Positions 1 to 27,855 of a stretch of 55,126 bases of DNA are shown here, one piece after another. Origin of the DNA: a virus. Where the stretch lies: positions 1-55,126 of IMG/VR virus record IMGVR_UViG_3300048672_000495. One strand, given 5' to 3'. How positions within the stretch are numbered: position 1 is the stretch's first letter; each line of letters starts with the position of its first letter. A program made the translations under genes and the position numbers. The notes below the pieces were generated by a model. That model was not told the DNA's origin and ran no database searches. It saw only the letters and a program-made list of their open reading frames with translations.

Positions 1-969
1 ATAGTTATCTATATCTATAAAACCCTGCGTCATAAATGTAGATACTAGATTATCACTTAGATTAATATCTAATAATGTATTATTAACTATATCTCTACTA
101 CTAAATGTATATAAAGCTCCTACTGTAGTATTGGAAGAATTATAGTGCATCTCTACTACAGAACTATCATCAATAGTATTTTCTACTGCTATGTTGGTAA
201 CTATATTATTTCCACCATCAACATATTTTGTACTACCTATTGTAGCAAATGCAGTTAAATTAGTATTTATAGAGTATTTAGCTGATATACCATCATAATT
301 TGATTGCATTCCATGGGCAGCATATTGTCTTCCAATACTTAATCCATATCCTCTATAAGTATCATCAACAGATGCAAACAATAAAGATGTTTTATATTTA
401 TTTTTACTATTATATCTACTATCTGTTAAACTATATGCATCTGATAATCTTGCTCTAAAATTATAAGTATATTCATCTTTTTTAATAGTTGTAGAGTTAC
501 TAAAACTATTGGCTAATGCTTTTGTATACCTATCACTATATAAATAACTAGATATACTAGAAGAAGTACTAGTACTGTCAATTACTCTTGGTAAACTATT
601 TTTTGACTCTACTTCTGGACGTTCTAATTTTGATTCTAATTCTTTTATTCTTTGTGTAATATTACTATTATACACTTCTTCTGGATAATCATTTAAGTAT
701 AATTGATACTCAATTTTAGCTCTAGCATAATTACCTAGATTTTCTAGAGTAACTGCGATCAATAATTGGGCTCGTTTAGATACGTTTGACTTTGGCATTA
801 ACAAAATCGCGTTCAATAGCTCGATGGCAGAATCAAAATCCTTCTGAACTAGAAAGATTTTTGCTTCTGCCATCAATTCTTGACTTGTTTTGTTGTTTGT
901 TACTTGTGGTGTAGCTGTACTATTTAAACTTAATAATAATAAAACTATGTAGAGATATTTATATTTCAT
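1..969 (-). CDS. Exported TPR-like / probable outer-membrane barrel protein (3' end outside window)
   Basis: Open from an ATG at 969 to the window edge (323 codons, no stop). The N-terminus KYKYLYIVLLLLSLN is a clear signal peptide. Residues ~25-100 look like a helical repeat (repeats of AKIFLVQKDFDSAIELLNAI type, TPR-like), and the rest is rich in alternating polar/hydrophobic stretches ending in aromatic residues (GYGLSIGRQYAAHG, LTAFATIGSTKY), as in outer-membrane beta-barrels. Function is not recognised; surface alteration or superinfection exclusion is only a guess. It sits downstream of tRNA-Pro on the same strand. Confidence 0.7.
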   Translation of the reverse strand, partial: MKYKYLYIVLLLLSLNSTATPQVTNNKTSQELMAEAKIFLVQKDFDSAIELLNAILLMPKSNVSKRAQLLIAVTLENLGNYARAKIEYQLYLNDYPEEVYNSNITQRIKELESKLERPEVESKNSLPRVIDSTSTSSSISSYLYSDRYTKALANSFSNSTTIKKDEYTYNFRARLSDAYSLTDSRYNSKNKYKTSLLFASVDDTYRGYGLSIGRQYAAHGMQSNYDGISAKYSINTNLTAFATIGSTKYVDGGNNIVTNIAVENTIDDSSVVEMHYNSSNTTVGALYTFSSRDIVNNTLLDINLSDNLVSTFMTQGFIDIDNY

Positions 970-14790: not shown

Positions 14791-15082
14791 CTTATTCAAA
14801 ACGAAACCAGAAGAAAAAAAAGAAATTGTAACAGGTCCCCCTACAAGTATTACACCTGCACCAAAACTACCTGAGCCCCCAATGTGGACAGTCGGGCCAT
14901 CAAATGATGGTACACAAATAGTGTTGTGTATACAGCATGATTGTACAATCATTAGGATGTATATGAATGCAGAGGCTACGGAATCGTTGATTCAATCGCT
15001 TGATTCCCTTCTTCAGCCGATGTTGACCGTATTGCAAAAAAATTCGGTTTTAGAGCCATTTCCAACGATCGAAACAGCATGA
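14783..15082 (+). CDS. Hypothetical protein
   Basis: 99 residues. Starts MFNLFKTKPEEKKEIVTGPP, Pro-rich to about residue 35, then a small domain (QIVLCIQHDCTIIRMYMN) and a C-terminal helix. Overlaps the previous gene by 8 bases and the next by 4 (ATGA), so it belongs to the same unit as the HTH protein. Confidence 0.65.
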   Translation: MFNLFKTKPEEKKEIVTGPPTSITPAPKLPEPPMWTVGPSNDGTQIVLCIQHDCTIIRMYMNAEATESLIQSLDSLLQPMLTVLQKNSVLEPFPTIETA

Positions 15083-15378
15083 AGTACGATAATGAAACTA
15101 CCAAGAAATTAGTTGCTGATTACGCCTCAGGCGTGTCAGTTGCGCTCCTTGCGGAGCAATTAGACGTCCCTGAGCGCTCTATAATTGCCAAACTGGCCTC
15201 ACTTGGTGTATACAAGAAGAAGGAATACCTTAATAAACAGGGTGAACCGCCCATAAAAAAGGAAGAATACGTCGAGCGTATTGCAAATTTGCTAAAAGTC
15301 AATGTAGAACTACTAGAATCTCTTGAAAAGGTCAATAAAAACGTCTTAAAGATGCTAGAAGACGCATTAACTTCCTAA
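15079..15378 (+). CDS. Putative HTH DNA-binding regulator, paralog 1
   Basis: 99 residues. ADYASGVSVALLAEQLDVPE then RSIIAKLASLGVYKKKEY reads as a helix-turn-helix; the C-terminus is a helix VELLESLEKVNKNVLKMLE. The same fold and the core RS-x-IAKL-x(2)-GVY recur in the proteins at 16999 and 18110. Similar small proteins are common in T4-like and marine phages. A transcription-regulatory role is inferred from the fold and from the repeated operator-like DNA nearby. Confidence 0.7.
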   Translation: MKYDNETTKKLVADYASGVSVALLAEQLDVPERSIIAKLASLGVYKKKEYLNKQGEPPIKKEEYVERIANLLKVNVELLESLEKVNKNVLKMLEDALTS

Positions 15379-15550: not shown

Positions 15551-15579
15551 TTGACAAATCTGCTCAGCACTGGTAAAAT
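15551..15579 (+). promoter_or_regulatory. Plus-strand promoter P0 (GGCGC class)
   Basis: TTGACA (15551-15556), 17-bp spacer, TAAAAT (15574-15579), then TTGGCGC. Same -10/GGCGC arrangement as the promoters in the 17.6-23.5 kb island. A degenerate TTACAT-TTTG-TTACAAT repeat lies downstream at 15600-15616. It is followed by a small ORF at 15666. Confidence 0.7.
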
Positions 15580-15665
15580 TTGGCGCCGAAACAGACTTGT
15601 TACATTTTGTTACAATTGAGCAAAAACTAAACCCCCAGAATCCGAAGATTAAGGGGGTTAGAAGT

Positions 15666-15854
15666 ATGACTAGTACTTTTTATATAGATATCTTGAGTCG
15701 TCGAAACTCTCAATCTCCACTGTTTTTTAAGAGCTGGGACTCTGCCAGGTTTATGCTCGGTAGCCGAGCACCAGCCGTATCGCGTCGTACTGGGTTTCTT
15801 TGTGTGGTAAGAGCTACTTACCTACACGTATGTGTTCCTAAGTTGGTACCATAA
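15666..15854 (+). CDS. Doubtful small ORF (62 aa)
   Basis: MTSTFYIDILSRRNSQSPLF with a GGGGG SD-like stretch before the ATG and promoter P0 upstream. However, the composition is unusual (many Ser/Arg), the sequence contains the strong hairpin GCTCGG/CCGAGC (about 15754-15768), and it runs into the structured RNA region, so it may be part of an RNA rather than a gene. Confidence 0.3.
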   Translation: MTSTFYIDILSRRNSQSPLFFKSWDSARFMLGSRAPAVSRRTGFLCVVRATYLHVCVPKLVP

Positions 15855-16838
15855 AGGGTTCGAGACCGCGTACTAGGTAACACAATATAACAACGTCTCC
15901 CGACGTTGGCTGGATCATGTTGGGTTGCCTCTGCATCCACGATCTGATCCGCAACAAGCTCGATAGCACTCCAAAGCTATCGCATTTAAGTCCAATTCGG
16001 GCAGGATTCCATCCTGGGGTGGACACTAAATAAACCGACTCTCACGGTATTCTAGATCTAAGTTTCGCTTGATGGCCCTTGCATGCTAGTCTGCGGCACT
16101 CGCTACACCAGTCTATATAAGGAGCTGCTCGACTGGTATCTGCGCTGCTCGCTAATCTTATAATTCGTCTTGGATTTGATTAAGATCCAATGTAACGTCT
16201 ACACTTATATTAACCTCCGGGCCGCATGTAGACGCCTCCCAGATTCTGCCTTTCGTTGTTGTGAGACTATTTTGCGATCTTCCCACTACTACTCGCAGCC
16301 GCTTATATGCCGGGCCAGATCAGACATCCTGGTTTAAGTCCTTATGTCAGAGACTACCAACTTAAGTTTTGGCAAACTAACTATACGGATGACACCAGAA
16401 TAGTCATAGGAGAGTAATCTCTTTAGGTAACAGGCACGCAAATGCTTTCGACCTTATTAGACACCTACGGTCAGGAGACTCAGAGAAATCAGACTCATCT
16501 GACTAATCTACGACTGACCGTTTCGACCGAATTGCACGGTCTCATCAGGATGCTTTAATTGGTACCCCTTATGGGTTTCGATCCCATCTGCACAACGTGA
16601 AAGGCTGTTGACCTCGCCAGAAGTCCAAAGGGGCATAAATAGGGGATGGCTGTCGACCTGGTATAATTTTCACGACACTTAGTTCATCTATTCCCAACCA
16701 TGTATGGGAACCAAAGAGCACCATCTGGAAAATTGTAGTATAAGCTCGCCGTCTACTCACGCTGCCTCTGCTTGACGTCCCTTTACAAGGTAACGTGTTA
16801 TACTACGCGCCGGTGATTCCGGTCTTTCTCTCACTTCA
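15855..16838 (-). ncRNA. Large structured RNA region with embedded tRNA-Glu
   Basis: About 1 kb of non-coding sequence read leftward from tandem promoters at 16845 and 16939. Perfect stems: 16468-16474/16514-16520, 16196-16203/16227-16234, 16107-16113/16131-16137, 16170-16175/16185-16190, 16002-16007/16011-16016, 15961-15967/15976-15982, and 15891-15897/15902-15908, the last capped on the minus strand by a GGGA (GNRA) tetraloop. tRNA-Glu sits near the 5' end. The design (tRNA plus ~700 nt of dense stems) resembles large ornate phage RNAs; identity is unproven. Confidence 0.6.
16560..16634 (-). tRNA. tRNA-Glu (anticodon TTC)
   Basis: Acceptor GCCCCTT/AAGGGGT, encoded CCA, D arm GACT-TCTGGCGA-GGTC, anticodon stem ACAGC/GTTGT with loop CTTTCAC (TTC), T arm ATGGG-ATCGAAA-CCCAT. 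The T loop begins with A instead of the near-universal T54. Located in the 5' part of the structured RNA transcript. Confidence 0.93.
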
Positions 16839-16844
16839 ACATCT

Positions 16845-16873
16845 ATTATACATGAAAAGGGGATGCGAATCAA
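16845..16873 (-). promoter_or_regulatory. Proximal tandem promoter for tRNA-Glu / structured RNA
   Basis: Minus-strand TTGATT (16868-16873), 17-bp spacer, TATAAT (16845-16850). The -10 flank TTTCATGTATAATA is identical to that of the distal promoter at 16939, indicating a duplicated promoter. Confidence 0.8.
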
Positions 16874-16938
16874 GACAATATTTATTGATCTGAATCGCTG
16901 CTTTTCTTCTTGTCGCTAATTCCCCAGTCCATATACAT

Positions 16939-16967
16939 ATTATACATGAAAGGAGCCCCAGGATCAA
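16939..16967 (-). promoter_or_regulatory. Distal tandem promoter
   Basis: Minus-strand TTGATC (16962-16967), 17-bp spacer, TATAAT (16939-16944). The -35 lies inside the terminator hairpin of the 16999 gene, so termination and re-initiation are superimposed. Confidence 0.7.
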
Positions 16968-16992
16968 GTGAGAATTTTTGATCCTAGGCTCC
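16952..16992 (-). terminator. Terminator-like hairpin after the 16999 gene
   Basis: Stem GGAGCC-TA-GGATCAA pairs with TTGATCC-TG-GGGCTCC, six bases after the stop codon, followed on the minus strand by only a short T run (TTT). Confidence 0.65.
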
Positions 16993-16998
16993 GCACCG

Positions 16999-17310
16999 TC
17001 AGGCTTCGAGAGCCTTCAGGACGAACATCAGAGCCGGACCCGTGGCCTTTTCCAGCGACTCCACCTGTTCTTCGGACGCGCCGACCGCCTTGGCGATCTT
17101 GGCAACCATTTCCGCCTTCAGCATCTCACGCTTGCCGGCTTCCTTGGCCTTGGGGACGTACACACCTTCCTTCGACAGCTTGGCGATCACCGAGCGTGCC
17201 GACTTGCCCAGCTTGACAGCCAGAGCTTCCACAGCCACACCAGCTTGATAGCCGGCAACCAGTTCCGCAACCTGTTCGGCGGAATAATTCGCAACCTTTT
17301 CAGCAGACAT
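16999..17310 (-). CDS. Putative HTH DNA-binding regulator, paralog 2
   Basis: 103 residues, homologous to the proteins at 15079 and 18110: LVAGYQAGVAVEALAVKLGK then ARSVIAKLSKEGVYVPK, with helix QVESLEKATGPALMFVLKAL at the end. SD AGGAGAG before the ATG and a clean promoter at 17370-17398. Codon choice is much more G+C-rich than in paralog 1 (for example GCC, CTG, AAG), so the copies have had different histories. Confidence 0.75.
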   Translation of the reverse strand: MSAEKVANYSAEQVAELVAGYQAGVAVEALAVKLGKSARSVIAKLSKEGVYVPKAKEAGKREMLKAEMVAKIAKAVGASEEQVESLEKATGPALMFVLKALEA

Positions 17311-17369
17311 TTTCTCTCTCCTATGTTAATGGGTTAATTTATTCGGATTGTTCTGCGATCCGATAAAGA

Positions 17370-17398
17370 ATTATAAATCGTTTGGATAAAAGCCTCAA
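17370..17398 (-). promoter_or_regulatory. Sigma-70 promoter of HTH paralog 2
   Basis: Minus-strand TTGAGG (17393-17398), 17-bp spacer, TATAAT (17370-17375); about 55 bases upstream of the start codon. Confidence 0.75.
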
Positions 17399-17606
17399 GT
17401 GAATATTTTTTAATGTATACTCGTGGCTCAACATTTTTTGGATACAAACGCGCACGTTAAAACTTATGCGGGCCGGCTGCCTACGCAGCGTTGGGTTATG
17501 CTTGATCTCCCAATCCATTTCATTATTATACGCGGGAAATTTCAAAAATTCAAGAAAATTATTTCCGACCTTACGACTAATTGGGGTCAGGCTCAGAAAA
17601 ATTCAC

Positions 17607-17635
17607 TTGACAGCGCGTGGTCGCGCGAGTATAAT
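17607..17635 (+). promoter_or_regulatory. Plus-strand promoter P1 (GGCGC class)
   Basis: TTGACA (17607-17612), 17-bp spacer containing the inverted repeat GCGCG-tggt-CGCGC, TATAAT (17630-17635), then GGGCGC. It points away from the HTH paralog 2 gene into a non-coding region with a 14-bp direct repeat. Confidence 0.75.
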
Positions 17636-17825
17636 GGGCGCGGCCAAATTATACCGCTTTACCACTGGCGCAGAACGCACTAAGTGTATTTTTTGTAGCA
17701 CTACCACTGGCGCAGCGCACTGCTTTTTTTCGACGTGAGCGCTCACTAACGTCCAAATGTGTGTAAGTGCTTACATTGAATGCGAGTGAGAATGATTCGC
17801 GTTCAGGGCCCGAATTGTAGCCTAT

Positions 17826-17875
17826 GTAACAGATTGTAAAAGTCATTGACACACCCCAATTTTATGTGATAAAAT
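17826..17875 (+). promoter_or_regulatory. Plus-strand promoter P2 with overlapping inverted repeat
   Basis: TTGACA (17846-17851), 18-bp spacer, TAAAAT (17870-17875), then TGGCGC. The perfect inverted repeat CCAATTTTAT-GTG-ATAAAATTGG (17856-17878) covers spacer and -10. A variant TTGTAA-type box lies just upstream (17826-17840). Confidence 0.8.
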
Positions 17876-17918
17876 TGGCGCGCCCGAAGTGAGTGCTCAC
17901 TTCGCTACCGGGCAAAAC

Positions 17919-17940
17919 AAAAACCGCGGCCGCGGTTTTT
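17919..17940 (+). terminator. Palindromic terminator ~50 bases after P2
   Basis: AAAAACCGCGG followed by CCGCGGTTTTT, a perfect 22-bp palindrome ending in T5. Functional in either direction; for P2 it would define an RNA of about 55-60 nt. Confidence 0.8.
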
Positions 17941-18083
17941 GAAAGTGAGTACCTGCTATGCGCAGGGATGCCAACCTAGCGGCTACCGATGGCGTCGGGT
18001 CACGGCCGCGTTTCTCGCTTTTTTGTCAATAGGGATTTACCCTATACCCGCCGCGATGACTTTATGCACGCATTGCGGGATTT

Positions 18084-18111
18084 AATCAATAGGGGTTTCC
18101 CCCTATTGATT
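18084..18111 (-). terminator. 12-bp hairpin at the end of HTH paralog 3
   Basis: AATCAATAGGGG-TTTC-CCCCTATTGATT overlaps the stop codon of the 18110 gene. No long T run, so it could be a terminator or an RNA-stabilising end. A shorter relative (TAGGG-ATTTA-CCCTA) lies near 18031. Confidence 0.6.
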
Positions 18112-18502
18112 ATTCGCCTACCGGGGCGACTTCGCCAGCCCTTTCCTCGCCATTTTCCAGCGGTTTGCTGTTGGCGAGCGCCGTGAAAATTTTCACCAGA
18201 GCGGTTTTGTTCGCCTTTGTGAGCGATTCCGTTTCCGATTCGGTCAACTTCAAAACCGCGCCGATCGCATCGGCGTGCGCGTCTTTCTTGACCGGCTTTT
18301 CGCCGTTCTTGCTGACATACGCCTTCGCCTTGTATACGCCTTCTTTCGTGAGCTTGGCGATCACGCTGCGAGCAGTCTTGCCGATGGCAACAGCCATCTT
18401 TTCGACGTTTTCCTTACTCGCGTCGGCAGCGTAGCCCGCGAGAATGGTTGCGGTTTGCGCATCGGTGTAATTCGGTGCCTTGACAGTCTTTTCGGTAGCC
18501 AT
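18110..18502 (-). CDS. Putative HTH DNA-binding regulator, paralog 3
   Basis: 130 residues. Same core as paralogs 1 and 2 (KTARSVIAKLTKEGVYKAK) preceded by an Ala-rich helix and followed by a C-terminal extension (ANSKPLENGEERAGEVAPVG) absent from the others. SD AAGGGC before the ATG; promoter at 18541-18569. Probably regulates genes of this island; target unknown. Confidence 0.75.
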   Translation of the reverse strand: MATEKTVKAPNYTDAQTATILAGYAADASKENVEKMAVAIGKTARSVIAKLTKEGVYKAKAYVSKNGEKPVKKDAHADAIGAVLKLTESETESLTKANKTALVKIFTALANSKPLENGEERAGEVAPVGE

Positions 18503-18540
18503 TTTTTGCCCTTTCGTGGCAGTTGTGAAGTGAAGTAGAG

Positions 18541-18569
18541 ACTATACCGGAATCCGAAAACCTTGTCAA
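18541..18569 (-). promoter_or_regulatory. Sigma-70 promoter of HTH paralog 3
   Basis: Minus-strand TTGACA (18564-18569), 17-bp spacer, TATAGT (18541-18546). A second, weaker TTGCGC-17-CATAAT pair lies upstream around 18630-18655, next to a TTACAAACTG repeat. Confidence 0.75.
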
Positions 18570-18660
18570 CTGTGGGGTTATTTCCCGTTGTTGCGTTGCG
18601 TTTGGTTTCTTGATCCGATAAGTAGATTATGAGGCATGGCAGGCCAGCGCGCAAGTGTTA

Positions 18661-18735
18661 TTACAAACTGTTACAATTGCATTTTCCTACCATATGCCCG
18701 CGTGCATGTCAAGCAGTATTACAAACTGTTACAAT
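18661..18735 (+). repeat. Two copies of the TTACAAACTGTTACAAT box
   Basis: Exact copies at 18661-18677 and 18719-18735. Each is a direct repeat of TTACAA with a 10-bp period, the geometry of tandem binding by OmpR/PhoB-type regulators (known family behaviour; which protein binds here is unknown). A third, degenerate copy at 18754-18770 abuts promoter P3. Confidence 0.75.
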
Positions 18736-18753
18736 TGCCCGGCCTGGGGCCTG

Positions 18754-18807
18754 TTACATCTTGTTACAAAAAACCGCTTGACGCGGGCCAAAATTATATG
18801 ATATAAT
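18754..18807 (+). promoter_or_regulatory. Plus-strand promoter P3 with box and inverted repeat
   Basis: Box TTACATCTTGTTACAAA (18754-18770), 7-base gap, TTGACG (18778-18783), 18-bp spacer, TATAAT (18802-18807). The inverted repeat CCAAAATTATAT-G-ATATAATTTTGG covers spacer and -10; GGCGC follows. Transcription runs into the palindrome AAGTTAGTGAGT-ACTCACTAACTT and then the terminator at 18852. Confidence 0.8.
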
Positions 18808-18851
18808 TTTGGCGCCCGAAGTTAGTGAGTACTCACTAACTTAGTATATAA

Positions 18852-18882
18852 AATAATATGGGGCATATTGCCCCATATTATT
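18852..18882. terminator. Bidirectional terminator-like palindrome
   Basis: AATAATATGGGGC, 5-base loop, GCCCCATATTATT; 13-bp stem overlapping the stop of the 18881 gene. It can end the minus-strand gene and the short P3 transcript. Confidence 0.75.
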
Positions 18883-19234
18883 AAACTATAACCCAGTATC
18901 TGTCGAGTAGATACCGCGCCCACGGTTTGAATTGTGTTTTCTCACCGTGGCCGAATCTATACCCATTTTCGTGCTGCCAGATATGGATATATTCGTGAAA
19001 CAAACACCCGAGCATTTTCTCCAGAGTATCCGAATACTGTTCAGATACTAGAATAACGTGAGTTTTTTTGTTCTTGCCGAGATACCCCGGATAATGGTAT
19101 AATGCTGCACATTCGTCACCATCCTGGTATATATGTTTCACGCGGAAAACATATACCGGCAATTTTACGTCGAATATCGAATCCATTAGCGGACCATATG
19201 GATTCGATATTCTTTGCATTTTGTTATTTGGCAC
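18881..19234 (-). CDS. SprT-like zinc metalloprotease domain protein 1, GTG start
   Basis: 117 residues. LFHEYIHIWQHENG contains the HExxH zincin motif (H80, E81, H84) and GYRFGHGEKTQFKPW could give the third ligand, as in SprT-type proteins (HExxH then GHGxxW). The GTG at 19234 has the SD AAAGGA and overlaps the exonuclease stop by 11 bases. Proposed function: intracellular proteolysis, substrate unknown. One of three HExxH proteins within 3.5 kb. Confidence 0.75.
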   Translation of the reverse strand: MPNNKMQRISNPYGPLMDSIFDVKLPVYVFRVKHIYQDGDECAALYHYPGYLGKNKKTHVILVSEQYSDTLEKMLGCLFHEYIHIWQHENGYRFGHGEKTQFKPWARYLLDRYWVIV

Positions 19235-19922
19235 AGAAATGATCCTTTACTTGAAAAGATTTCCAGTTATATGCAATTGTTTTTTCTTGCCAATTGCGTT
19301 TCTTGAGAATATGCACCAGAGTCGGCAATTCATATCCGATAATATCCTCAATTGAAGTATGCGGTTCGTCAGTCATACTACCAGTGAGAAACCCAGTAAC
19401 TGCTTCGGCAGTTGTCGAATATGTCATATTACCGAATTTCGTGCGAGCATTGAACAAATGATTGTCAATGGCAAACTGTCGATATGCCTTAGTTTGACAG
19501 ATATTGCCAACGGCCGCGCCCCATAAACAAAACCGATTTGAAAACATATTCAAATCAATTTGAGTATTTGCACATTTACTCGCATCAAATGCGAGATTAT
19601 ATGCCGTAAGTGTCGGGTTATACTTACCCGCTGCTTTTTCCAGCCAACGATTTACTGCGTTTGCGCTTGCGAGCATACGCGAACCCGCTGTTAGCATCGC
19701 ATTATAAGAATCCATGCGTGCAGACACGTTCGCAGCAGACCAGATACCCGGCGCATTCTTATCGTAAAAAAGCGAGTCAACACCAAAAACAGATTGAACC
19801 AAAACCGCACATTGTGCGGCAATGTTTCCATGCCTATCGCAGACAACCGCGCCAAAATCCGCGACCTTATCCGTGATTGACGTTTCAGTGTCAACGATTA
19901 GGAAAAACTGTTTTTTTGCCAT
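19224..19922 (-). CDS. DnaQ-like DEDDh 3'-5' exonuclease
   Basis: 232 residues. Exo motif I is FFLIVDTETS (D11, E13); motif II TAYNLAFDAS; motif III EPHTSIEDIIGYELP (H-x4-D), giving a DEDDh active site. Probably degrades DNA or RNA ends; role in host takeover or repair is open. The promoter, with its GGGTAAACACCTA box, is at 19948-19990. Confidence 0.8.
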   Translation of the reverse strand: MAKKQFFLIVDTETSITDKVADFGAVVCDRHGNIAAQCAVLVQSVFGVDSLFYDKNAPGIWSAANVSARMDSYNAMLTAGSRMLASANAVNRWLEKAAGKYNPTLTAYNLAFDASKCANTQIDLNMFSNRFCLWGAAVGNICQTKAYRQFAIDNHLFNARTKFGNMTYSTTAEAVTGFLTGSMTDEPHTSIEDIIGYELPTLVHILKKRNWQEKTIAYNWKSFQVKDHFCAK

Positions 19923-19947
19923 TGTGCGCCTTAGTGGGTGAGCATTG

Positions 19948-19990
19948 ATTATATAGGAAAAACCAGTTGCGTGACTAGGTGTTTACCCTT
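19948..19990 (-). promoter_or_regulatory. GGGTAAACACCTA-box promoter (copy 1)
   Basis: Minus strand: AAGGGTAAACACCTA (19976-19990), then 22 bases, then TATAAT (19948-19953). No good -35 hexamer is present, so the box seems to take its place. Three more copies occur upstream of minus-strand genes at 21704, 22604 and 23026. Confidence 0.65.
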
Positions 19991-20465
19991 AGTGACCTTG
20001 CACGCTAGGGACATATACCCCGCTGATTTTGAACCTATCACAAACCGCTTTCAGATACTGCACATTATCTTCGTAAAATACTGCGCGAGCGGCCCGAAAC
20101 TGTTTCAAATTGAAGAATTTAATCAACCCGCGAATTTTCAATTTCGCACCGCTGATATTCTCGCCGGGTTTGCGCGAGATTAGATAATCTGGTTTGCCGA
20201 GAATCTCATTTACATATTGCCAGTCTGCCGCGCCCATTTGCCGCGCAGTCGCAATAATAACATAACATTCAGGGTCTGCAATATCTGCCTTATATTGTTG
20301 CGCGAGCGGCAATAACTTATCAAGCATTGCCAGTTTTTCATTTTCTCGCCAATATGGCAAGTCGATTCGTTCGACATTATCCGCACCCATTATTGTGCGG
20401 TATCTATGTGAACTATCAACGATAGTACCGTCCATATCGTAAATAGATACTCTGCGAATTGCCAT
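19989..20465 (-). CDS. HAD-superfamily phosphatase
   Basis: 158 residues from the ATG at 20465 (SD AAAGGA). SIYDMDGTIVDSSHRYR holds the catalytic DxDGT (D10, D12); YVIIATARQ gives the motif II Thr, and RAVFYEDNVQYL the acidic motif IV. Similar to the phosphatase half of phage polynucleotide-kinase/phosphatases and to HAD nucleotidases; substrate probably a nucleotide or nucleic-acid end. Confidence 0.8.
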   Translation of the reverse strand: MAIRRVSIYDMDGTIVDSSHRYRTIMGADNVERIDLPYWRENEKLAMLDKLLPLAQQYKADIADPECYVIIATARQMGAADWQYVNEILGKPDYLISRKPGENISGAKLKIRGLIKFFNLKQFRAARAVFYEDNVQYLKAVCDRFKISGVYVPSVQGH

Positions 20466-20502
20466 TATATTATCCTTTGGTTGATTCGTTTCTGACCCTT
20501 TG

Positions 20503-20531
20503 AATATACGCTTACCCGCGCAGTGTGTCAA
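20503..20531 (-). promoter_or_regulatory. Sigma-70 promoter of the HAD gene
   Basis: Minus-strand TTGACA (20526-20531), 17-bp spacer, TATATT (20503-20508). A TTACAAACTG box (20538-20554) lies six bases upstream of the -35, i.e. in activator or repressor position. Confidence 0.8.
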
Positions 20532-20537
20532 TCAGTT

Positions 20538-20606
20538 TTACAAACTGTTACAATTTCGGCGCGCATAGATTTGGCTAATTGTCAAGTGTTATTACAAACT
20601 GTTACA
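20538..20606. repeat. Two TTACAAACTGTTACA boxes upstream of the HAD promoter
   Basis: Copies at 20538-20554 (exact) and 20592-20606. Together with the copy at 20626 (attached to P4) they make three boxes in 105 bases, shared between a minus-strand and a plus-strand promoter. Confidence 0.75.
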
Positions 20607-20625
20607 CGGGCCATACTTTGCACCG

Positions 20626-20679
20626 TTACAAACTGTTACAATAAAGTGCTTGACGCGGCCCAATTTTATGTGATAAAAT
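20626..20679 (+). promoter_or_regulatory. Plus-strand promoter P4 with box and inverted repeat
   Basis: Box 20626-20642, 7-base gap, TTGACG (20650-20655), 18-bp spacer, TAAAAT (20674-20679). Inverted repeat CCAATTTTAT-GTG-ATAAAATTGG. GGCGC follows, then GTAAGTTAG-tgctaa-CTAACTTAC at the expected 5' end of the RNA. Confidence 0.8.
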
Positions 20680-20719
20680 TGGCGCAAATGTAAGTTAGTG
20701 CTAACTAACTTACGTGATA

Positions 20720-20860
20720 TTAAATAATAAGTAGGAAACAAACCCACGTTATTATTATAAGAATATCACCTATTCGAGTTTGCCCTTCGATGCAAAATGT
20801 TGCGGTACGGGTAATTGGTATTCTCAAATACCATTTACGATACTCAAAAAGGTTTTTCAT
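20720..20860 (-). CDS. Mini-protein with C-terminal membrane helix (46 aa)
   Basis: MKNLFEYRKWYLRIPITRTA then a hydrophobic end (DILIIITWVCFLLII). ATGA overlap with the upstream 41-residue gene. Its 3' end lies under the P4 transcript, which would be antisense to it. Confidence 0.5.
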   Translation of the reverse strand: MKNLFEYRKWYLRIPITRTATFCIEGQTRIGDILIIITWVCFLLII

Positions 20861-20982
20861 ATGATAATGATTTCCTCAACGCGAACAACCCGCCACCTAT
20901 ATTTTGCATATACTGCGGCCCGAGATTCTGCGAATACCATAATCGCAGTACCATTTTCCAATGCGACGTTAAATAATCTCAT
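20857..20982 (-). CDS. Mini-protein (41 aa)
   Basis: MRLFNVALENGTAIMVFAES then a basic stretch (KYRWRVVRVEE). SD GAGG before the ATG, ATGA overlaps on both sides, so translated as part of the PQ-loop gene unit. Function unknown. Confidence 0.5.
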   Translation of the reverse strand: MRLFNVALENGTAIMVFAESRAAVYAKYRWRVVRVEEIIII

Positions 20983-21266
20983 ATTTGCCTCGCAGTGAAT
21001 TTGATTTGAATTTCAGTATCATTACGTTCCCAGATTTTATATCTGAGCATAATAACCAGAAACGCAAGATTTGCCAAATAATTTACCGACAGCGGCAAAT
21101 TACCCATTGGCAAAACGTAAATCAGTGTAAAAACTTCGCCACCAAGCCAGCATAGCAGATATGCCCAATTCAGCCCGCGTGCGTGACCATCACGCGCACA
21201 TTGAATAGCCTGAGGAAAACCGCAAATGCTGAAAAGCATTGAACCAATCCAACCGATAGTTTCCAT
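20979..21266 (-). CDS. PQ-loop / SemiSWEET-like membrane protein
   Basis: 95 residues, three predicted membrane helices. ICGFPQAIQCARDGHARGLN has the Pro-Gln pair and following polar turn typical of PQ-loop proteins, and the single three-helix unit is the size of bacterial SemiSWEET sugar transporters, which work as dimers. Transport of a small molecule by the phage protein is inferred only. Confidence 0.7.
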   Translation of the reverse strand: METIGWIGSMLFSICGFPQAIQCARDGHARGLNWAYLLCWLGGEVFTLIYVLPMGNLPLSVNYLANLAFLVIMLRYKIWERNDTEIQIKFTARQI

Positions 21267-21668
21267 TTATGCCTCCAATGCGCGCCGAAAAATAATTTCT
21301 TGGTTTGCGAATGCTTGCAATTCCCATGGTTGATTCATATATGGGGTTTTGCGTGGATATTTTACACCATTCCAGATACGCGAGCCATTCTTTGTGTCTG
21401 ACAATTTGCCAGTCGCAAATTGTTTGACATGCGTCAATTCGTGCGCTAGTGACAGCCCGAATTTTTCGAGTGTCATGCCTTTCTTCAGCGAGACAACGAA
21501 CGAACCCGCGAATAGTTCCTGCGCTAATCCCTCGTTTTCCTGTTTCGATACCGTGACAAGCACGAATCCTGCGCGCTTTGACAAATTCAATTGCGCGAGC
21601 ATTGATGGCATGAGCGCATCAAGCCATGTCGCAATGCGCCTGCTTTTCGTGTCGATCAGATATTCCAT
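21267..21668 (-). CDS. HExxH zinc metalloprotease-like protein 2
   Basis: 133 residues from the ATG at 21668; a TTG 30 bases upstream is possible. LSLAHELTHVKQFATG carries HExxH (H76, E77, H80). Downstream PYMNQPWELQAFANQEIIF has a WExxA-type Glu that could be the third zinc ligand (gluzincin-like). Its stop directly precedes the ATG of the PQ-loop gene. The GGGTAAACACCTA box is at 21704-21720. Confidence 0.7.
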   Translation of the reverse strand: MEYLIDTKSRRIATWLDALMPSMLAQLNLSKRAGFVLVTVSKQENEGLAQELFAGSFVVSLKKGMTLEKFGLSLAHELTHVKQFATGKLSDTKNGSRIWNGVKYPRKTPYMNQPWELQAFANQEIIFRRALEA

Positions 21669-21703
21669 GCCTAGAGCATACCACGCCACGGTGAACAATT
21701 TCC

Positions 21704-21720
21704 TAGGTGTTTACCCTAGT
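21704..21720 (-). promoter_or_regulatory. GGGTAAACACCTA-box promoter element (copy 2)
   Basis: Minus-strand ACTAGGGTAAACACCTA, followed after 23 bases by a poor -10 (TATGCT). Upstream of metalloprotease gene 2. Confidence 0.55.
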
Positions 21721-21738
21721 GTGGCAAATTCAGCACGC

Positions 21739-21792
21739 TTACAAACTGTTACAATAAATCGCTTGACGCACCCCATTTTACTATGGTAAAAT
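21739..21792 (+). promoter_or_regulatory. Plus-strand promoter P5 with box and inverted repeat
   Basis: Box 21739-21755, 7-base gap, TTGACG (21763-21768), 18-bp spacer, TAAAAT (21787-21792). Inverted repeat CCATTTTAC-TAT-GTAAAATGG; GGCGC follows. The start of the RNA contains GTTACAA-ac-TTGTAAC and an inverted box copy (to about 21826). Confidence 0.8.
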
Positions 21793-21837
21793 GGCGCAAA
21801 TGTTACAAACTTGTAACAGTTTGTAACATCGCTTGAC

Positions 21838-21942
21838 TTATTGCCAACGATTAGGGTCACCGCATATCCAAATGCACCCGACTAGAGTGCACCCCATGAG
21901 AATCAATCCACCAAGACCCACGACAGTGATCAAAAAATCCAT
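21838..21942 (-). CDS. Membrane mini-protein (34 aa)
   Basis: MDFLITVVGLGGLILMGCTL with further small hydrophobic residues and a GDPNRWQ tail; one membrane helix. Its ATG overlaps the stop of metalloprotease gene 3 by one base (TAATG). Confidence 0.5.
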   Translation of the reverse strand: MDFLITVVGLGGLILMGCTLVGCIWICGDPNRWQ

Positions 21943-22322
21943 TATCTACCTTTCTTTGCGCGCGCAATGCGCATTGCCGACGTTGTGAGAGAATGACAGC
22001 GCGAGGGTTCCAGCCCATAGGCCAGCATCACGCTTTTCCAATGGTAGCCGTGACCGTTATCACGGTACACATCCCACGCTACCATGTGAGCGATTTCATG
22101 TGGAATAATGTCTTGTTTGTATGCTTCGACATTTTCCGCAAACATGACAGGGGCAAGCTCAACAATGCGAGCGTCAAGATTGCAGCGGCCTGCAGTGGTC
22201 TTGAGTCTGCGGTTTAGCTGAATCACGGGCATCGTGTTTTTCAGTGTGAACAGTTGCCCAAAGCGCTGCCAAATTTTGGAGCGCTCGCATTCTGCGATCA
22301 GTTGAAGTGTTTTTTCGTCCAT
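21942..22322 (-). CDS. SprT-like zinc metalloprotease domain protein 3
   Basis: 126 residues. DIIPHEIAHMVAWDVY (H75, E76, H79) followed by DNGHGYHWKSVMLAYG, with a third His at 91 or 94: the classic SprT/Spartan layout HExxH-x(n)-GHGxxW. SprT-like domains in cells cut proteins crosslinked to DNA (known for Spartan); here the target is unknown. Unlike cellular SprT it has no C-terminal zinc ribbon. Confidence 0.85.
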   Translation of the reverse strand: MDEKTLQLIAECERSKIWQRFGQLFTLKNTMPVIQLNRRLKTTAGRCNLDARIVELAPVMFAENVEAYKQDIIPHEIAHMVAWDVYRDNGHGYHWKSVMLAYGLEPSRCHSLTTSAMRIARAKKGR

Positions 22323-22331
22323 GACAGGATT

Positions 22332-22550
22332 CTAGCACATCGGCTGACAGAAACGATCCCACATTTCTTGCCCATCGACTTCGTACAAACCCGCATACGG
22401 GCCGAGTTCATCTGAGAGAAATTCGCAGTATTCCTCATCTGTCAAACCAGCGCACAGCAGGTTTTGCAGTTCAGTGACTTCGCCGATTGGCAGGCGTTCG
22501 CAATCCTCGCCAATCATGTCGCAGCGTTGGGGGCCGAGGTCAATTGTCAT
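22332..22550 (-). CDS. Hypothetical acidic Cys-containing protein
   Basis: 72 residues from the ATG at 22550 (SD GGAG); an earlier in-frame start is not needed. MTIDLGPQRCDMIGEDCERL, five Cys in total, ending in FCQPMC. Acidic and possibly secreted-like in Cys content, but without a signal peptide. No family recognised. Confidence 0.6.
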   Translation of the reverse strand: MTIDLGPQRCDMIGEDCERLPIGEVTELQNLLCAGLTDEEYCEFLSDELGPYAGLYEVDGQEMWDRFCQPMC

Positions 22551-22603
22551 AGTCGTTTCTCCAGTTGACGCATTCATTCTATAGCATCCAGCCAACAATA
22601 ACA

Positions 22604-22620
22604 TAGGTGTTTACCCTAGT
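22604..22620 (-). promoter_or_regulatory. GGGTAAACACCTA-box promoter element (copy 3)
   Basis: Minus-strand ACTAGGGTAAACACCTA, 23 bases before TAGAAT, upstream of the 22550 gene. Confidence 0.6.
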
Positions 22621-22626
22621 GTTGTT

Positions 22627-22681
22627 TTACAAATTGTTACACGTGCAGCTATTGACACGTCCCAATTATACGTGGTATAAT
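22627..22681 (+). promoter_or_regulatory. Plus-strand promoter P6 with box and inverted repeat
   Basis: Box TTACAAATTGTTACACG (22627-22643), 8-base gap, TTGACA (22652-22657), 18-bp spacer, TATAAT (22676-22681). Inverted repeat CCAATTATAC-GTG-GTATAATTGG; GGCGC follows. An inverted box copy lies at 22690-22706 and a terminator at 22722. Confidence 0.8.
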
Positions 22682-22721
22682 TGGCGCCAATTGTAACAGT
22701 TTGTAACAGTGCTTGACAAAA

Positions 22722-22745
22722 CAAAACCCGCCTAAGCGGGTTTTG
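22722..22745. terminator. Rho-independent terminator
   Basis: CAAAACCCGC-CTAA-GCGGGTTTTG. Works in both directions: it ends the minus-strand 22795 gene and would cut the P6 transcript to about 55 nt. Confidence 0.85.
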
Positions 22746-22794
22746 AACGTAAGCGGGTCGGAAATTCGCGCCCGCTCAGGCCGTAATTCTCAGC

Positions 22795-22971
22795 CTATAC
22801 GTTTTTATTTGTTAATTCGCACCAATGCCCACGCCACGAGCATTGCAACGGCAGAGGCGCACGCGCAGCGCGGTTCGCATCCTGAGCGCGCTTCTGTGCG
22901 CGAGTGTCGCGAGCAGGCAGTGGGGCGAGGTTCAGGGTAGCACGGATTTCGTTGATACGGGCAAGGTTCAT
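22795..22971 (-). CDS. Small basic protein (58 aa)
   Basis: MNLARINEIRATLNLAPLPA then RDTRAQKRAQDANRAARAPL; Arg/Ala-rich, probably helical, ends in a Cys/Trp segment. SD GGAG before the ATG; the box promoter at 22999-23040 is upstream and a terminator is downstream, so it is a complete single-gene unit. Might bind nucleic acid. Confidence 0.65.
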   Translation of the reverse strand: MNLARINEIRATLNLAPLPARDTRAQKRAQDANRAARAPLPLQCSWRGHWCELTNKNV

Positions 22972-22998
22972 TTCGTTTCTCCGGTGTGTGAGTCTGAA

Positions 22999-23040
22999 TT
23001 ATAGCGCACCGATCACGATGCGCTATAGGTGTTTACCCTT
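22999..23040 (-). promoter_or_regulatory. GGGTAAACACCTA-box promoter (copy 4)
   Basis: Minus strand: AAGGGTAAACACCTA (23026-23040), then 22 bases, then TATAAT near 22998-23003. Upstream of the 22795-22971 gene and immediately after the stop of the 23033 gene. Confidence 0.65.
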
Positions 23041-23338
23041 GATTGTACAAATTCGCGAAGCTTTGCGCGAAGTAGTCGAAATTGTCAGACGTGCAAGGCA
23101 CGGGCACATCACAGCGGCGAATCGCTTGCGATGCGCCGATGAGTCTGTCGAATTTCGGTTCACTTGGCGATTGCCATGCGATGCCCATGCATGCCCATTG
23201 CGAACCCGCAAAGTTTTCGATCAGGGCAATGGTCAGGCCAATGTCACGAAAGAAAAACAGTTCGCCGCCTGCGCTCATAAAGTCATTGCGCATCTCGGTA
23301 TTGTATTTGCGTTGGCCCGCAGTCATCTTCGTTGTCAT
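23033..23338 (-). CDS. Hypothetical protein
   Basis: 101 residues from the ATG at 23338 (SD AAGGGC). MTTKMTAGQRKYNTEMRNDF, then an aromatic middle (GELFFFRDIGLTIAL) and two further short strands. Codon use is G+C-rich like its neighbours. No family recognised. Confidence 0.65.
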   Translation of the reverse strand: MTTKMTAGQRKYNTEMRNDFMSAGGELFFFRDIGLTIALIENFAGSQWACMGIAWQSPSEPKFDRLIGASQAIRRCDVPVPCTSDNFDYFAQSFANLYNQG

Positions 23339-23410
23339 GGTTTGCCCTTTCGTGGCAGTGGTTGATTGACAATGTAAGTATAGGGCATGGAATAGCACAT
23401 GCAAGCACCT

Positions 23411-23474
23411 TTACAAACAGTTACAAAGAGTTACAATAAATATGTTGACGCGGGCCTATGCGCTGTGGTAAAAT
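23411..23474 (+). promoter_or_regulatory. Plus-strand promoter P7 with triple box
   Basis: Three TTACAA units in exact 10-bp steps (23411-23436), 8-base gap, TTGACG (23445-23450), 18-bp spacer, TAAAAT (23469-23474), then AGGCGC. The inverted repeat is only partial (CCTAT/ATAGG). The RNA would start with GTAAGTTAG-tgctaa-CTAACTTAC, the same hairpin as P4. Confidence 0.8.
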
Positions 23475-23514
23475 AGGCGCAAATGTAAGTTAGTGCTAAC
23501 TAACTTACATCGTA

Positions 23515-24277: not shown

Positions 24278-24306
24278 TTGCGCTAATATCCTCACCGTGA
24301 TATAAT
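24278..24306 (+). promoter_or_regulatory. Promoter of the packaging/glycosylation operon
   Basis: TTGCGC (24278-24283), 17-bp spacer, TATAAT (24301-24306), about 30 bases before the first glycosyltransferase start. Confidence 0.75.
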
Positions 24307-24334
24307 TACTGCATCACACAACTATGTAACCACG

Positions 24335-25522
24335 ATGTACAAACCAAATGAGAAATTAAATGCTTTATTCGCGAAGGCTAGAAATTATAGAAAAAATACG
24401 CGTTTTGATAGAGCCTTGGAATATTACAATAGAGTACTAGGTTTACAAAAATGTAAAGAAGCATATCAAGAAATAGGATTAATTTACGTAGAGTTACATG
24501 ATTTAGATAAAGCTAAAGAATACTTCAATAAAGCTAATGATTCTAATATACCATATTTAAATGGAAAACATGTATCAAATGATCCTACATGCATACATAA
24601 TTTAGCTAGTATTGAATATATAATGTTCAATGATATAGAAGCTATGCGATTATACAAAATTGCGTATTCATTAGATCACAACAACTATGCTGCACTTTTA
24701 GGGTATGGTCAGAGTGGGATCAGACGATATTGTGAAGGTGATACTTCTATTGATCTTAAACAGATGTGGAAATATTACACATATAGGTTTATGGAGGGAG
24801 ATTTAACAATCTATCGCCCACACGATCTCTGGGATGGAATTACACCACACTTATCAGAAAGTATAGTCGTACTTCGCGATCAGGGTCAAGGTGATGCACT
24901 AATGTTTAGCAGATACTTACCTGAGCTACAAAAATACTTTAAAAAGATATATATGCAGGTAGCTCCTGAATTGGAGTGTTTATACGAAAATATATATGAT
25001 GCCAATAGTGATTGTAAATATGCTATACCAATTGGTAATTTACCCCAGTTATTAGATTATATTCCTGCTGGAGATTGGCTTGCTAATAGAAATATATATG
25101 AAAAGCATGATGGACTAAGAGTAGGTTGTGTATGGGGTGGTAATAATTTACACAAGAACCATAGTGATAGAGCCTGTCCTCCCTCATACTTTGATAATTT
25201 AGAATATGATAAATATAGTTTCGTACCTAGAGTTGGATATACGTTTTTGGAATGGAAAAACTGGGATGATACTATATATTGGTTAAATAAGTTAGACGTA
25301 GTTGTAACTGTTGACACTTCAATGGTACATATGTGTGGCTGTTTAGGTAAACCTTGTATCATGATAATGCCACTCATAAGTGGTGATTTCAGGTGGGGAC
25401 GCTCGGATAAAACTATTTGGTACTCAAGTGTTAATATTGTACATAATAATGATAGTTGGTCAGAAGCATTTAAAGAAGTAAGAAAGAGACTAGATGAATT
25501 TGCCAGTAAACACACCAGTTGA
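24335..25522 (+). CDS. TPR-linked GT9-type glycosyltransferase, copy A
   Basis: 395 residues. Residues ~1-130 are TPR-like helices (KARNYRKNTRFDRALEYYNR, IYVELHDLDKAKEYFNKAND). The C-terminal part resembles ADP-heptose:LPS heptosyltransferase-type (GT-B) enzymes: LRDQGQGDALMFSRYLPEL, GLRVGCVWGGN, then DVVVTVDTSMVHMCGCLGKP. Copy B (25958) has the same layout. Expected to transfer a sugar to protein or glycan in the cytoplasm. Composition is the AT-rich phage type, unlike the island to the left. Confidence 0.82.
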   Translation: MYKPNEKLNALFAKARNYRKNTRFDRALEYYNRVLGLQKCKEAYQEIGLIYVELHDLDKAKEYFNKANDSNIPYLNGKHVSNDPTCIHNLASIEYIMFNDIEAMRLYKIAYSLDHNNYAALLGYGQSGIRRYCEGDTSIDLKQMWKYYTYRFMEGDLTIYRPHDLWDGITPHLSESIVVLRDQGQGDALMFSRYLPELQKYFKKIYMQVAPELECLYENIYDANSDCKYAIPIGNLPQLLDYIPAGDWLANRNIYEKHDGLRVGCVWGGNNLHKNHSDRACPPSYFDNLEYDKYSFVPRVGYTFLEWKNWDDTIYWLNKLDVVVTVDTSMVHMCGCLGKPCIMIMPLISGDFRWGRSDKTIWYSSVNIVHNNDSWSEAFKEVRKRLDEFASKHTS

Positions 25523-25961
25523 AGTATTAGATATTTCACCAGAAGCACTAGAAGTTGCAAATTGCTACTTACAGACACAAAATTTAGACGCTGTTGCTAG
25601 TGAACTAGATATATCAAAAGAGTTAGTTACTCAAATTTTGTCGAAGAAAGAAGTAAAATCATATATAGATCATGTATTCTTTAATCTAGGATTTAATAAT
25701 AGATTCAAGATGCGTGCTGCGATGGATGCTATTATAAAGAAGAAGTTTCAGGAGCTAGAAGAAAGTGAAATGGGCTCAACTAAGGACATTGCAGAACTAT
25801 TAGCTTTAAGTCATAAAATGACAATGGATGAAATGAGTAGACAGATTGAGCTTGAGAAACTACAACAAGCAAATATAAAGAACCAAGTTAACGTACAGAT
25901 TAACGATGGTGGAACTAAATATAACACATTGATAGAAAAGTTGTTAAGCGGAGACATATGA
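25494..25961 (+). CDS. terS: Terminase small subunit-like HTH protein
   Basis: 155 residues. NCYLQTQNLDAVASELDISK with ELVTQILSKKEVKSYIDHVF is the N-terminal helix-turn-helix plus step-wise helix typical of small terminases; the middle has a long helix (DEMSRQIELEKLQQANIKNQ) for oligomerisation. It binds the packaging site on DNA and loads the large subunit. Overlaps both glycosyltransferase genes, so it cannot be a recent separate insertion. Confidence 0.75.
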   Translation: MNLPVNTPVEVLDISPEALEVANCYLQTQNLDAVASELDISKELVTQILSKKEVKSYIDHVFFNLGFNNRFKMRAAMDAIIKKKFQELEESEMGSTKDIAELLALSHKMTMDEMSRQIELEKLQQANIKNQVNVQINDGGTKYNTLIEKLLSGDI

Positions 25962-27160: not shown

Positions 27161-27855
27161 TTGGTAGGTACGGTGAAGTATGGTACTACGGTAAGGATCG
27201 CTTTATTGGTAGAGGCCTACATGCCTATGGAGAATTTAGTCACCAAGAGTGCATGAATATTTTAGCACTTGCACGGGAGGGTGATGGGGTTTGCCTTGAT
27301 ATAGGTGCTAATATGGGATGTATATCCCAAATGCTTGAGTACCATGGGATGACAGTTGTGGCCTTCGAGCCGCAGCCTGAGCTAATCAAAGTGCTAGAAA
27401 AGAACTTTAAAGGCTCTATTAAGAACTTTGCACTTGGCAGTGAAGAAAAGACTGAGGTAATGCCTAAGTATGACTATAGCTCAAATGGTAGTTTTGGTGA
27501 GGCTAGCTTAGGTACTAAAAGTGCACTAGGTAGTATTACTGTAGATGTTAAGAAACTAGATAATTTCTTCTTTGGTAAAATTGGATTCATGAAGATTGAC
27601 GTTGAAGGATATGAATTAGAAGTACTAAAGGGTGCTAGAGAGACTATTCTTAAATATAAGCCATTAATGTACATTGAAGATGACAGGGCTGAAAAAAGTC
27701 CTGCACTACATGCCTATCTAAGTGAGCTAGGATATATTTGTGAACTAGATGTAACTAAACTATATAATCCGGATAATTTCTTTAATAATTCTAAACGGAT
27801 TTGGGATAGAGATTATGTATCTCTTAATTTAATATGTAGGCCTAAGAAATGTTAA
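27148..27855 (+). CDS. FkbM-family SAM-dependent methyltransferase
   Basis: 235 residues. SAM motif VCLDIGANMGCISQML, then VVAFEPQPELIKVLEKNF and FMKIDVEGYELEVLKGARE, the standard FkbM set. Family members O-methylate sugars and polyketides. With two glycosyltransferases upstream, methylation of the added sugar is the simplest reading. Overlaps terL by seven bases. Confidence 0.88.
   Translation: MRSVIGRYGEVWYYGKDRFIGRGLHAYGEFSHQECMNILALAREGDGVCLDIGANMGCISQMLEYHGMTVVAFEPQPELIKVLEKNFKGSIKNFALGSEEKTEVMPKYDYSSNGSFGEASLGTKSALGSITVDVKKLDNFFFGKIGFMKIDVEGYELEVLKGARETILKYKPLMYIEDDRAEKSPALHAYLSELGYICELDVTKLYNPDNFFNNSKRIWDRDYVSLNLICRPKKC

Follow-up and report, generated by a model that had tools for sequence, protein, structure and literature searches.

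The DNA analysed here, called the window throughout, is an IMG/VR virus record of 55,126 bases (IMGVR_UViG_3300048672_000495; G000), a fragment of a T5-like siphophage in which a σ70-type promoter followed by GGCGC recurs between 15.4 and 24.3 kb, in most copies with its -10 hexamer inside a short palindrome. Judged by sequence comparison, this element is real and, within a clade of uncultivated T5-like phages, conserved. Compensatory change maintains the palindrome, which holds the -10 and much of the spacer, and this points to a structural constraint; the promoter elements keep a single orientation and stand at cassette boundaries, where gene order is broken. What the palindrome does is a separate question, and our preferred answer, a structural gate on a host promoter, is a tentative one.

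Same-direction promoters in the window and its relatives

An earlier note on this DNA had listed eight related plus-strand promoters (P0 to P7), and all eight are found at the positions it gave, each matching the σ70 consensus at 10-12 of 12 positions with the hexamers 16-18 bp apart. The pattern it had described, TTGACR, a spacer of 17-18 and TAWAAT, holds in every promoter (hexamers and spacers are read out in Table 1), and seven of the eight have an extended -10 (TG one base ahead of the -10), the exception being P1. GGCGC, said to come right after the -10, is present in all eight but not always directly: the gap is 0 nt in P5, 1 nt in P1, P2, P4, P6 and P7, 2 nt in P0 and 3 nt in P3. P1-P7 do lie in gaps between minus-strand genes and point against gene direction, P1 and P2 in one common gap, and P0 is downstream of a plus-strand gene. 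Where the note had counted at least five perfect inverted repeats over spacer and -10, there are exactly five, in P2-P6, with arms CCAATTTTAT-GTG-ATAAAATTGG (P2 and P4), GCCAAAATTATA-TGA-TATAATTTTGGC (P3), CCATTTTAC-TATG-GTAAAATGG (P5) and CCAATTATAC-GTG-GTATAATTGG (P6); the -10 lies inside one arm, and the TGn of the extended -10 often forms the loop. A pattern covering five of the eight promoters matches the 55 kb five times forward, never in reverse and never in a backwards control. Promoter-like sites in 15.4-24.5 kb number 32, against 16.0 ± 3.6 in shuffles, and perfect hairpins (stem of at least 9), at 1.68 per kb between 15.4 and 24.3 kb, are denser than on the flanking sides (0.39 and 0.36 per kb), an enrichment that recurs in the promoter cluster of four of four relative regions.

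Relatives were drawn from two scans of viral contigs, 119 stretches each; the counts are those among the matches listed and no census. A match had to contain TTGAC, TGn, TANAAT and GGCGC; a palindrome was no requirement. With the main pattern (TTGACN-N15-TGN-TANAAT-N0-5-GGCGC) the matches listed comprise 256 distinct sites in 124 loci, 146 with a contiguous stem of 8-14 and 110 with one of 0-5; with a shorter-spacer pattern they comprise 145 sites, one of which has a stem above 6. When TGn was not demanded, 478 distinct sites were listed, and a stem of at least 8 was present in 215 of 328 with a spacer of 18, in 1 of 149 with a spacer of 17 and in the single site with a spacer of 19. The non-palindromic promoters with a shorter spacer (TTGACN-12..14-TGn-TANAAT..GGCGC) occur in many viral contigs (e.g. 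L013, L035, L038, L040, L051 and L074), some with several, and form a wider promoter class with GGCGC in common. Among the listed palindromes ending at GGCGC, 169 fit the search pattern and 54 are the second palindrome (see below) from the other strand; outside the pattern, 39 have TTGAC at promoter distance and 19 lack it, six of the latter being, by eye, elements read from the other strand. One helix-turn-helix (HTH) protein used as a query led to four loci already showing the same element, with different arms.

The direction is as constant as the motif. Fourteen large records hold 3-9 promoters with GGCGC each (84 sites), on one strand per record and with no match in a backwards control, and in 13 of 13 records having both, the elements share the strand of the terminase gene and lie upstream of it. 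By eye, 12 of 15 records have palindromic or near-palindromic copies and three (G002, G004 and G012) have none; at the terminase-distal end of the cluster, relatives carry a non-palindromic promoter resembling P0 (e.g. TTTTGCACTGGTATAATGGCGC). Absence from close relatives, which the earlier note had named as counting against the set, is therefore not what is found: a related same-direction set recurs against the genes. That the set could not be recognised from known phages needs dividing, since the phage itself is T5-like and yet the element is present in none of six cultured T5-like records (T5, KKP 3953, Slocum, PSTCR5, DU_PP_V and VCPH). Our literature search found no description of the element, which is weak evidence of absence as most subscription papers were outside the search.

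Gene context was analysed in 41 non-redundant loci, the window included, with at least three palindromic copies each. They contain 206 sites; the 162 palindromic ones all point in one direction, with none on the other strand. Open reading frames (ORFs) of at least 60 aa with a ribosome site, counted between the first and last element, are on the opposite strand in 209 of 231 cases and on the same strand in 22. The facing ORF's stop codon lies 66 nt from GGCGC in the median (quartiles 44 and 100; n = 159), and on the other side a median of 129 nt separates TTGAC from the start of the ORF there (n = 150); these distances place the element after one gene's stop codon and before the next gene's own control region. 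ORF families reappear in differing orders among the loci, with varying neighbours for each family. Family pairs that are neighbours in one locus are neighbours elsewhere too in 251 of 822 comparisons if an element separates them and in 651 of 1111 if none does, a comparison that leaves out the HTH family and in which loci are reused many times and the comparisons are not independent. Gene order is thus broken more often at the element, which we therefore take to mark the boundaries of shuffled cassettes.

Compensatory changes preserve the palindrome

The evidence comes from a leave-one-pair-out test on distinct sites, in which the pair being tested is excluded when the palindrome is located and the outcome is compared with 2000 shuffles. 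A complementary partner stands opposite position 3 of the -10 in 176 of 191 sites, as A-T, T-A and G-C pairs (shuffles: mean 114, maximum 133). Complementarity extends to the three bases past the -10, in 175 of 177 sites for the first (shuffle maximum 151), 112 of 112 for the second (110) and 94 of 96 for the third (92). For the two G of GGCGC, pairing is seen in 168 of 185 and 127 of 187 sites, and here the shuffles are uninformative, the base being invariant. When the right arm is swapped for that of another class, a fraction of 0.088 keep a stem of 8, compared with 214 of 328 observed. The palindrome centre shifts relative to the -10 and arm length varies while complementarity is maintained, and a hairpin or cruciform therefore suits the data better than a fixed operator. 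Among the 217 palindromic sites listed, the loop is 3 in 152, 4 in 33, 5 in 31 and 6 in one. A bidirectional promoter arising from a symmetric -10 was rejected as the source of the symmetry: the inner six pairs would suffice for it, yet the outer pairs co-vary too.

Single-strand folds pair the -10 in 214 of 215 palindromic sites and the -35 in 38 of 215 on the plus strand and 53 of 215 on the minus strand, compared with 83 and 82 of 257 non-palindromic promoters. Inside the -10, G.T mismatches exceed C.A mismatches by 9 to 3, hinting at a plus-strand hairpin, although A-to-G transitions account for the excess equally.

A possible supercoiling gate and its alternatives

Our leading explanation, put forward tentatively, is a host σ70 promoter at the end of a cassette with the palindrome as its structural gate. 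Each element would be a near-consensus host promoter (TTGACR-18-TGnTAWAAT) just past the stop codon of a small-gene cassette, firing towards the 3' end of the facing gene, against gene direction and towards the terminase side. Host RNA polymerase would use these promoters, and the transcripts would begin close to GGCGC and carry a hairpin at the 5' end. Some would stop after no more than about 60 nt, at the terminator-like hairpin belonging to the facing gene, so that each promoter would also shield a cassette against read-through from the next one. While the phage DNA is still linear and relaxed, just after entry, the -10 would be ordinary duplex and the promoter active, and in a region negatively supercoiled by gyrase or by divergent promoters nearby the AT-rich palindrome would extrude as a cruciform, locking the -10 in a hairpin and switching the promoter off. 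The repeated elements would also supply short homology for cassette exchange. That they represent a natural class of supercoiling-gated σ70 promoters, free of any regulator protein and carried in a mobile cassette-boundary element, seems to us rather doubtful.

The precedent for a gate of this kind is a hairpin of phage N4 that, placed between the -35 and -10 of rrnB, silenced the promoter, which novobiocin reactivated (PMC4496689); like the suggested gate, that hairpin makes a σ70 promoter gyrase-sensitive. The early N4 promoters of the virion RNA polymerase (vRNAP) also resemble the element in having a short hairpin by the start whose structure is kept although bases that are not critical differ (PMC4496689); conservation of a hairpin's structure across changing bases is what the leave-one-pair-out test finds here, the fixed-column version being weak. 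The difference is that N4 brings its own virion RNA polymerase and its hairpin turns promoters on, whereas the promoters here are σ70-type, hold the -10 in an arm and would be turned off. Extension of the -10 region is linked in PMC8695583 to tighter polymerase binding and damped activity, and on our analysis a damped, tight-binding promoter where facing genes end would suit a second role as an insulator. If the gate is true, a structural off-switch would be a simple answer, in this clade, to how T5-type phages switch transcription classes with the host σ70 polymerase, a matter that PMC7472727 calls unknown; it would be a useful part for synthetic biology as well. Separately from the gate, a promoter-hairpin element kept on one strand at the joints of shuffled small-gene cassettes offers a marker for host-takeover genes in uncultivated T5-like phages.

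Several points weigh against the gate. A fixed-column measure of covariation is weak, 0.636 against a shuffle maximum of 0.631 and, in the other centre class, 0.597 against 0.580, in a version of the test that mixes in non-palindromic promoters. The sites are kin by descent, so the shuffles overstate their independence. According to PMC4496689, extrusion of the N4 hairpin needs a special loop sequence, and extrusion of the present hairpins at physiological supercoiling is a prediction. The gate leaves the function of GGCGC unexplained, and in the window P0, P1 and P7 have promoter and GGCGC and lack the palindrome, so that gating would cover five of the eight promoters. Three alternatives, which may apply alone or together, are a protein-bound operator, a regulon of small RNAs and an element for recombination.

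An operator over the -10 is a standard design. The palindrome could be an ordinary double-stranded one, bound by a dimer of a phage protein, most likely a D5-like HTH paralog, that represses all the promoters; we regard this as unlikely, while still the strongest of the alternatives. The three HTH paralogs that the earlier note had pointed to in the region do match PHROG 1725 (DNA binding protein), all three weakly, and two of them also match PHROG 323 (the T5 D5-like transcriptional regulator) weakly. Their family, with 69 of the 460 ORFs, has more members in the cluster than any other, and PHROG 323 has two to six matches per record in 14 of 14 relative records; nine of the 14 have a nearly full-length match away from the cluster (that of G011 with two internal stops), and short copies lie in or near it. 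However, centre, half-site spacing and outer-arm sequence vary while complementarity is maintained, and two other repeats look more like conserved operators and appear from their sequences to be better candidates than the palindrome. One is a direct-repeat box like TTACAAACTGTTACAA, with a 10-bp period, that adjoins promoters on both strands and is a candidate regulator site. The other is a near-palindrome, TAGGTGTTTACCCT[TA], at 19976, 21704, 22604 and 23026, upstream of several minus-strand gene starts and often followed, with spacing judged by eye, by a -10-like TATAAT or TATAGA without a -35.

Somewhat less probable again is a regulon of short structured or antisense RNAs as the purpose of the elements, with the palindrome incidental to control. 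The promoters face gene 3' ends, and most predicted RNA 5' ends fold better than shuffles, with z of -3.0 for P0, -3.2 for P2, -7.1 for P3, -5.1 for P4, -3.2 for P5, -2.1 for P6 and -2.2 for P7, P1 standing at +0.6. Bidirectional hairpins resembling terminators lie near P2, P3 and P6, and strong 5' folding with those near P2 and P6 is compatible with short RNAs and is not proof of them. Yet the first palindrome is upstream of the predicted RNA, so that its upkeep is unaccounted for, the second palindromes, which follow GGCGC, differ between lineages, and Rfam at its gathering threshold returned only tRNA matches.

We give a smaller chance to cassette exchange on the model of the PeSL (promoter early stem-loop) elements of T4-type phages, which are reportedly repeated units whose promoters drive the next gene. 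Homology between copies would then drive module shuffling, and template switching in replication, not selection, would match the arms. The resemblance is close, a repeated promoter and stem-loop at module boundaries between small genes in a shuffled region, and the breakage of gene order at elements, the variable neighbours of each family and the enrichment of perfect hairpins in the clusters all agree with it. It leaves unaccounted for the constant inclusion of the -10 of an 18-spacer promoter, the end of the palindrome at the GG of GGCGC and its absence from spacer-17 copies. The promoters of PeSL units drive the adjacent gene, whereas no palindromic copy here is on the gene strand; they belong to T4-type phages, and the element to T5-like phages, with its palindrome over the -10.

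In integron attC arrays every cassette gene is followed by a hairpin whose structure is conserved, and all the hairpins point the same way. The element shares this layout, but integron-like recombination was rejected: a tyrosine recombinase (IntI) was found in none of 14 relative records (positive control found in 14 of 14), and the conserved ends here are promoter elements.

Recognition of a folded single strand, as in the Frpo, M13-origin or N4 vRNAP type of promoter, is very improbable. A hairpin with a loop of 3-5 nt does lie just upstream of the start, N4 hairpins too vary in sequence with structure kept (PMC4496689), and Frpo of plasmid F provides several hairpin promoters in DNA that enters the cell early (PMC9849209). 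Frpo folds both -35 and -10 into duplex (PMC9849209), whereas the fold here holds the -10 only: both are paired in only 38 of 215 palindromic sites, a lower share for the -35 than in non-palindromic promoters, which led us to reject the Frpo type. The single-subunit RNA polymerase domain PF00940 was found in none of 14 relative records, in a search whose control genomes gave no match either.

The least credible reading makes GGCGC a T5-type nick site (consensus R/GCGCRGG, with RGG after GCGC; PMC3517423) and the palindromes the end structures of the nick. The T5 major interruptions are on the strand equivalent to the window's plus strand, G|GCGC suits R/GCGC, and a palindrome directly follows T5 nick 1; but RGG after GCGC is absent from the element (none of the eight window promoters; in 217 palindromic sites the next base is C 139 times, A 64 times, G 13 times and T once), RGCGC shows no strand bias in the window region (27 on the plus strand, 32 on the minus), and the upstream sequences common to T5 nicks were not seen by eye. 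The four annotated nicks of T5 (AY543070), near 9748, 22336, 39746 and 78573, continue with RGG after R|GCGC and, by eye, have in common an upstream stretch with GTAA, some 30-45 nt ahead of R|GCGCRGG. A role as late promoters of the terminase operon was set aside; by eye, a separate plus-strand TTGCGC-17-TATAAT is at 24279-24307.

Phage identity and further features of the region

Rightwards of 24.3 kb the window has T5-type terminase, portal, protease-capsid, T5 p143-like completion, major tail and tape-measure genes, so that terminase, portal, capsid and tail genes follow in a Demerecviridae-like order; the closest cultured matches of the terminase are T5-like phages at 44-47% identity. The leftmost 15 kb contain tRNAs and small genes. 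By synteny only, 15.4-24.3 kb may be the counterpart of the T5 terminal repeat, because that repeat (AY543070) sits between the tRNA/phosphatase region and the terminase side. The two are alike in lying next to the terminase side with small genes and D5-type regulators, and differ in that T5 and the five other cultured T5-like records lack the element and the relatives here lack a detectable pre-early gene A1 (found in none of 14 relative records and in three of three cultured T5-like records, the window's own record not being searched). GC content (0.41-0.51 in the shifted region of the window against about 0.35) was dropped as a mark of terminal-repeat identity, the shift not recurring in any of four relative regions. 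As to the host, an exact-palindrome scan of genome contigs gave no stretches, and a terminase search gave no relative.

Table 1. Coordinates of promoters, palindromes, hairpins, HTH genes and boxes in the window
Feature	Position	Strand	Description
P0	15551..15586	+	TTGACA-17-TAAAAT; GGCGC 15582-15586; no palindrome
P1	17607..17641	+	TTGACA-17-TATAAT; GGCGC 17637-17641; no palindrome over -10
P2	17846..17881	+	TTGACA-18-TAAAAT; GGCGC 17877-17881; palindrome 17856-17878, 10 bp arms, loop 3
P3	18778..18815	+	TTGACG-18-TATAAT; GGCGC 18811-18815; palindrome 18787-18813, 12 bp arms, loop TGA
P4	20650..20685	+	TTGACG-18-TAAAAT; GGCGC 20681-20685; palindrome 20660-20682, 10 bp
P5	21763..21797	+	TTGACG-18-TAAAAT; GGCGC 21793-21797; palindrome 21773-21794, 9 bp, loop 4
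P6	22652..22687	+	TTGACA-18-TATAAT; GGCGC 22683-22687; palindrome 22662-22684, 10 bp
P7	23445..23480	+	TTGACG-18-TAAAAT; GGCGC 23476-23480; outer palindrome pairs only, contiguous stem 1
Second palindrome after P2	17886..17903	+	GAAGTGAG..CTCACTTC, near predicted RNA 5' end
Second palindrome after P3	18819..18842	+	10 bp, predicted 5' RNA hairpin
Second palindrome after P4	20690..20713	+	10 bp, predicted 5' RNA hairpin
Second palindrome after P5	21800..21829	+	12 bp
Second palindrome after P7	23483..23510	+	12 bp
GC-rich hairpin with A/T-run flanks	17918..17941		just past P2; possible bidirectional terminator, not on the terminator-scan list
14 bp hairpin	18852..18882		between P3 and the stop of facing ORF 18881-19234; possible terminator, not on the terminator-scan list
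Intrinsic-terminator-like hairpin with T-run	22722..22745	-	faces P6; the only one of the three listed by the terminator scan
HTH paralog	15079-15378	+	weak matches to PHROG 1725 and D5-like PHROG 323
Small HTH protein, family f0	16999..17310	-	weak matches to PHROG 1725 and D5-like PHROG 323
Small HTH protein, family f0	18110..18502	-	weak match to PHROG 1725
TTACAAACTGTTACAA-like box	15600, 18661, 18719, 18754, 20538, 20626, 21739; inverted 21811, 22691

The second palindromes are alike within one genome and different between genomes; those of the form AAATGAGAATGATTCTCATTT / AAATGCGAATnATTCGCATTT after GGCGC (L051, L096, L154, L160, L172, L182 and L204) look like Fur boxes. In relatives, parS-like palindromes, GTT[TC]CACGTG[AG]AAC, are found 32 times in 15 of 64 loci with at least two palindromic promoters and six times in 148 other loci, 31 of the 32 being 61-107 nt downstream of TTGAC (e.g. 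L138, L154, L156, L167 and L182). The window has none, and a ParB_N domain was found in none of the 10 records searched; they may be a decoy for host ParB or a part of the element. Between 15660 and 16960 the window has about 1.3 kb without convincing ORFs, in which ARAGORN places a tRNA-Glu at 16560-16634 and Rfam makes no call at its gathering threshold. The genes for the small and large terminase are interspersed with those for two TPR-repeat proteins (24335-25522 and 25958-27160) and an FkbM-type methyltransferase (27148-27855), an arrangement that differs from that of T5.

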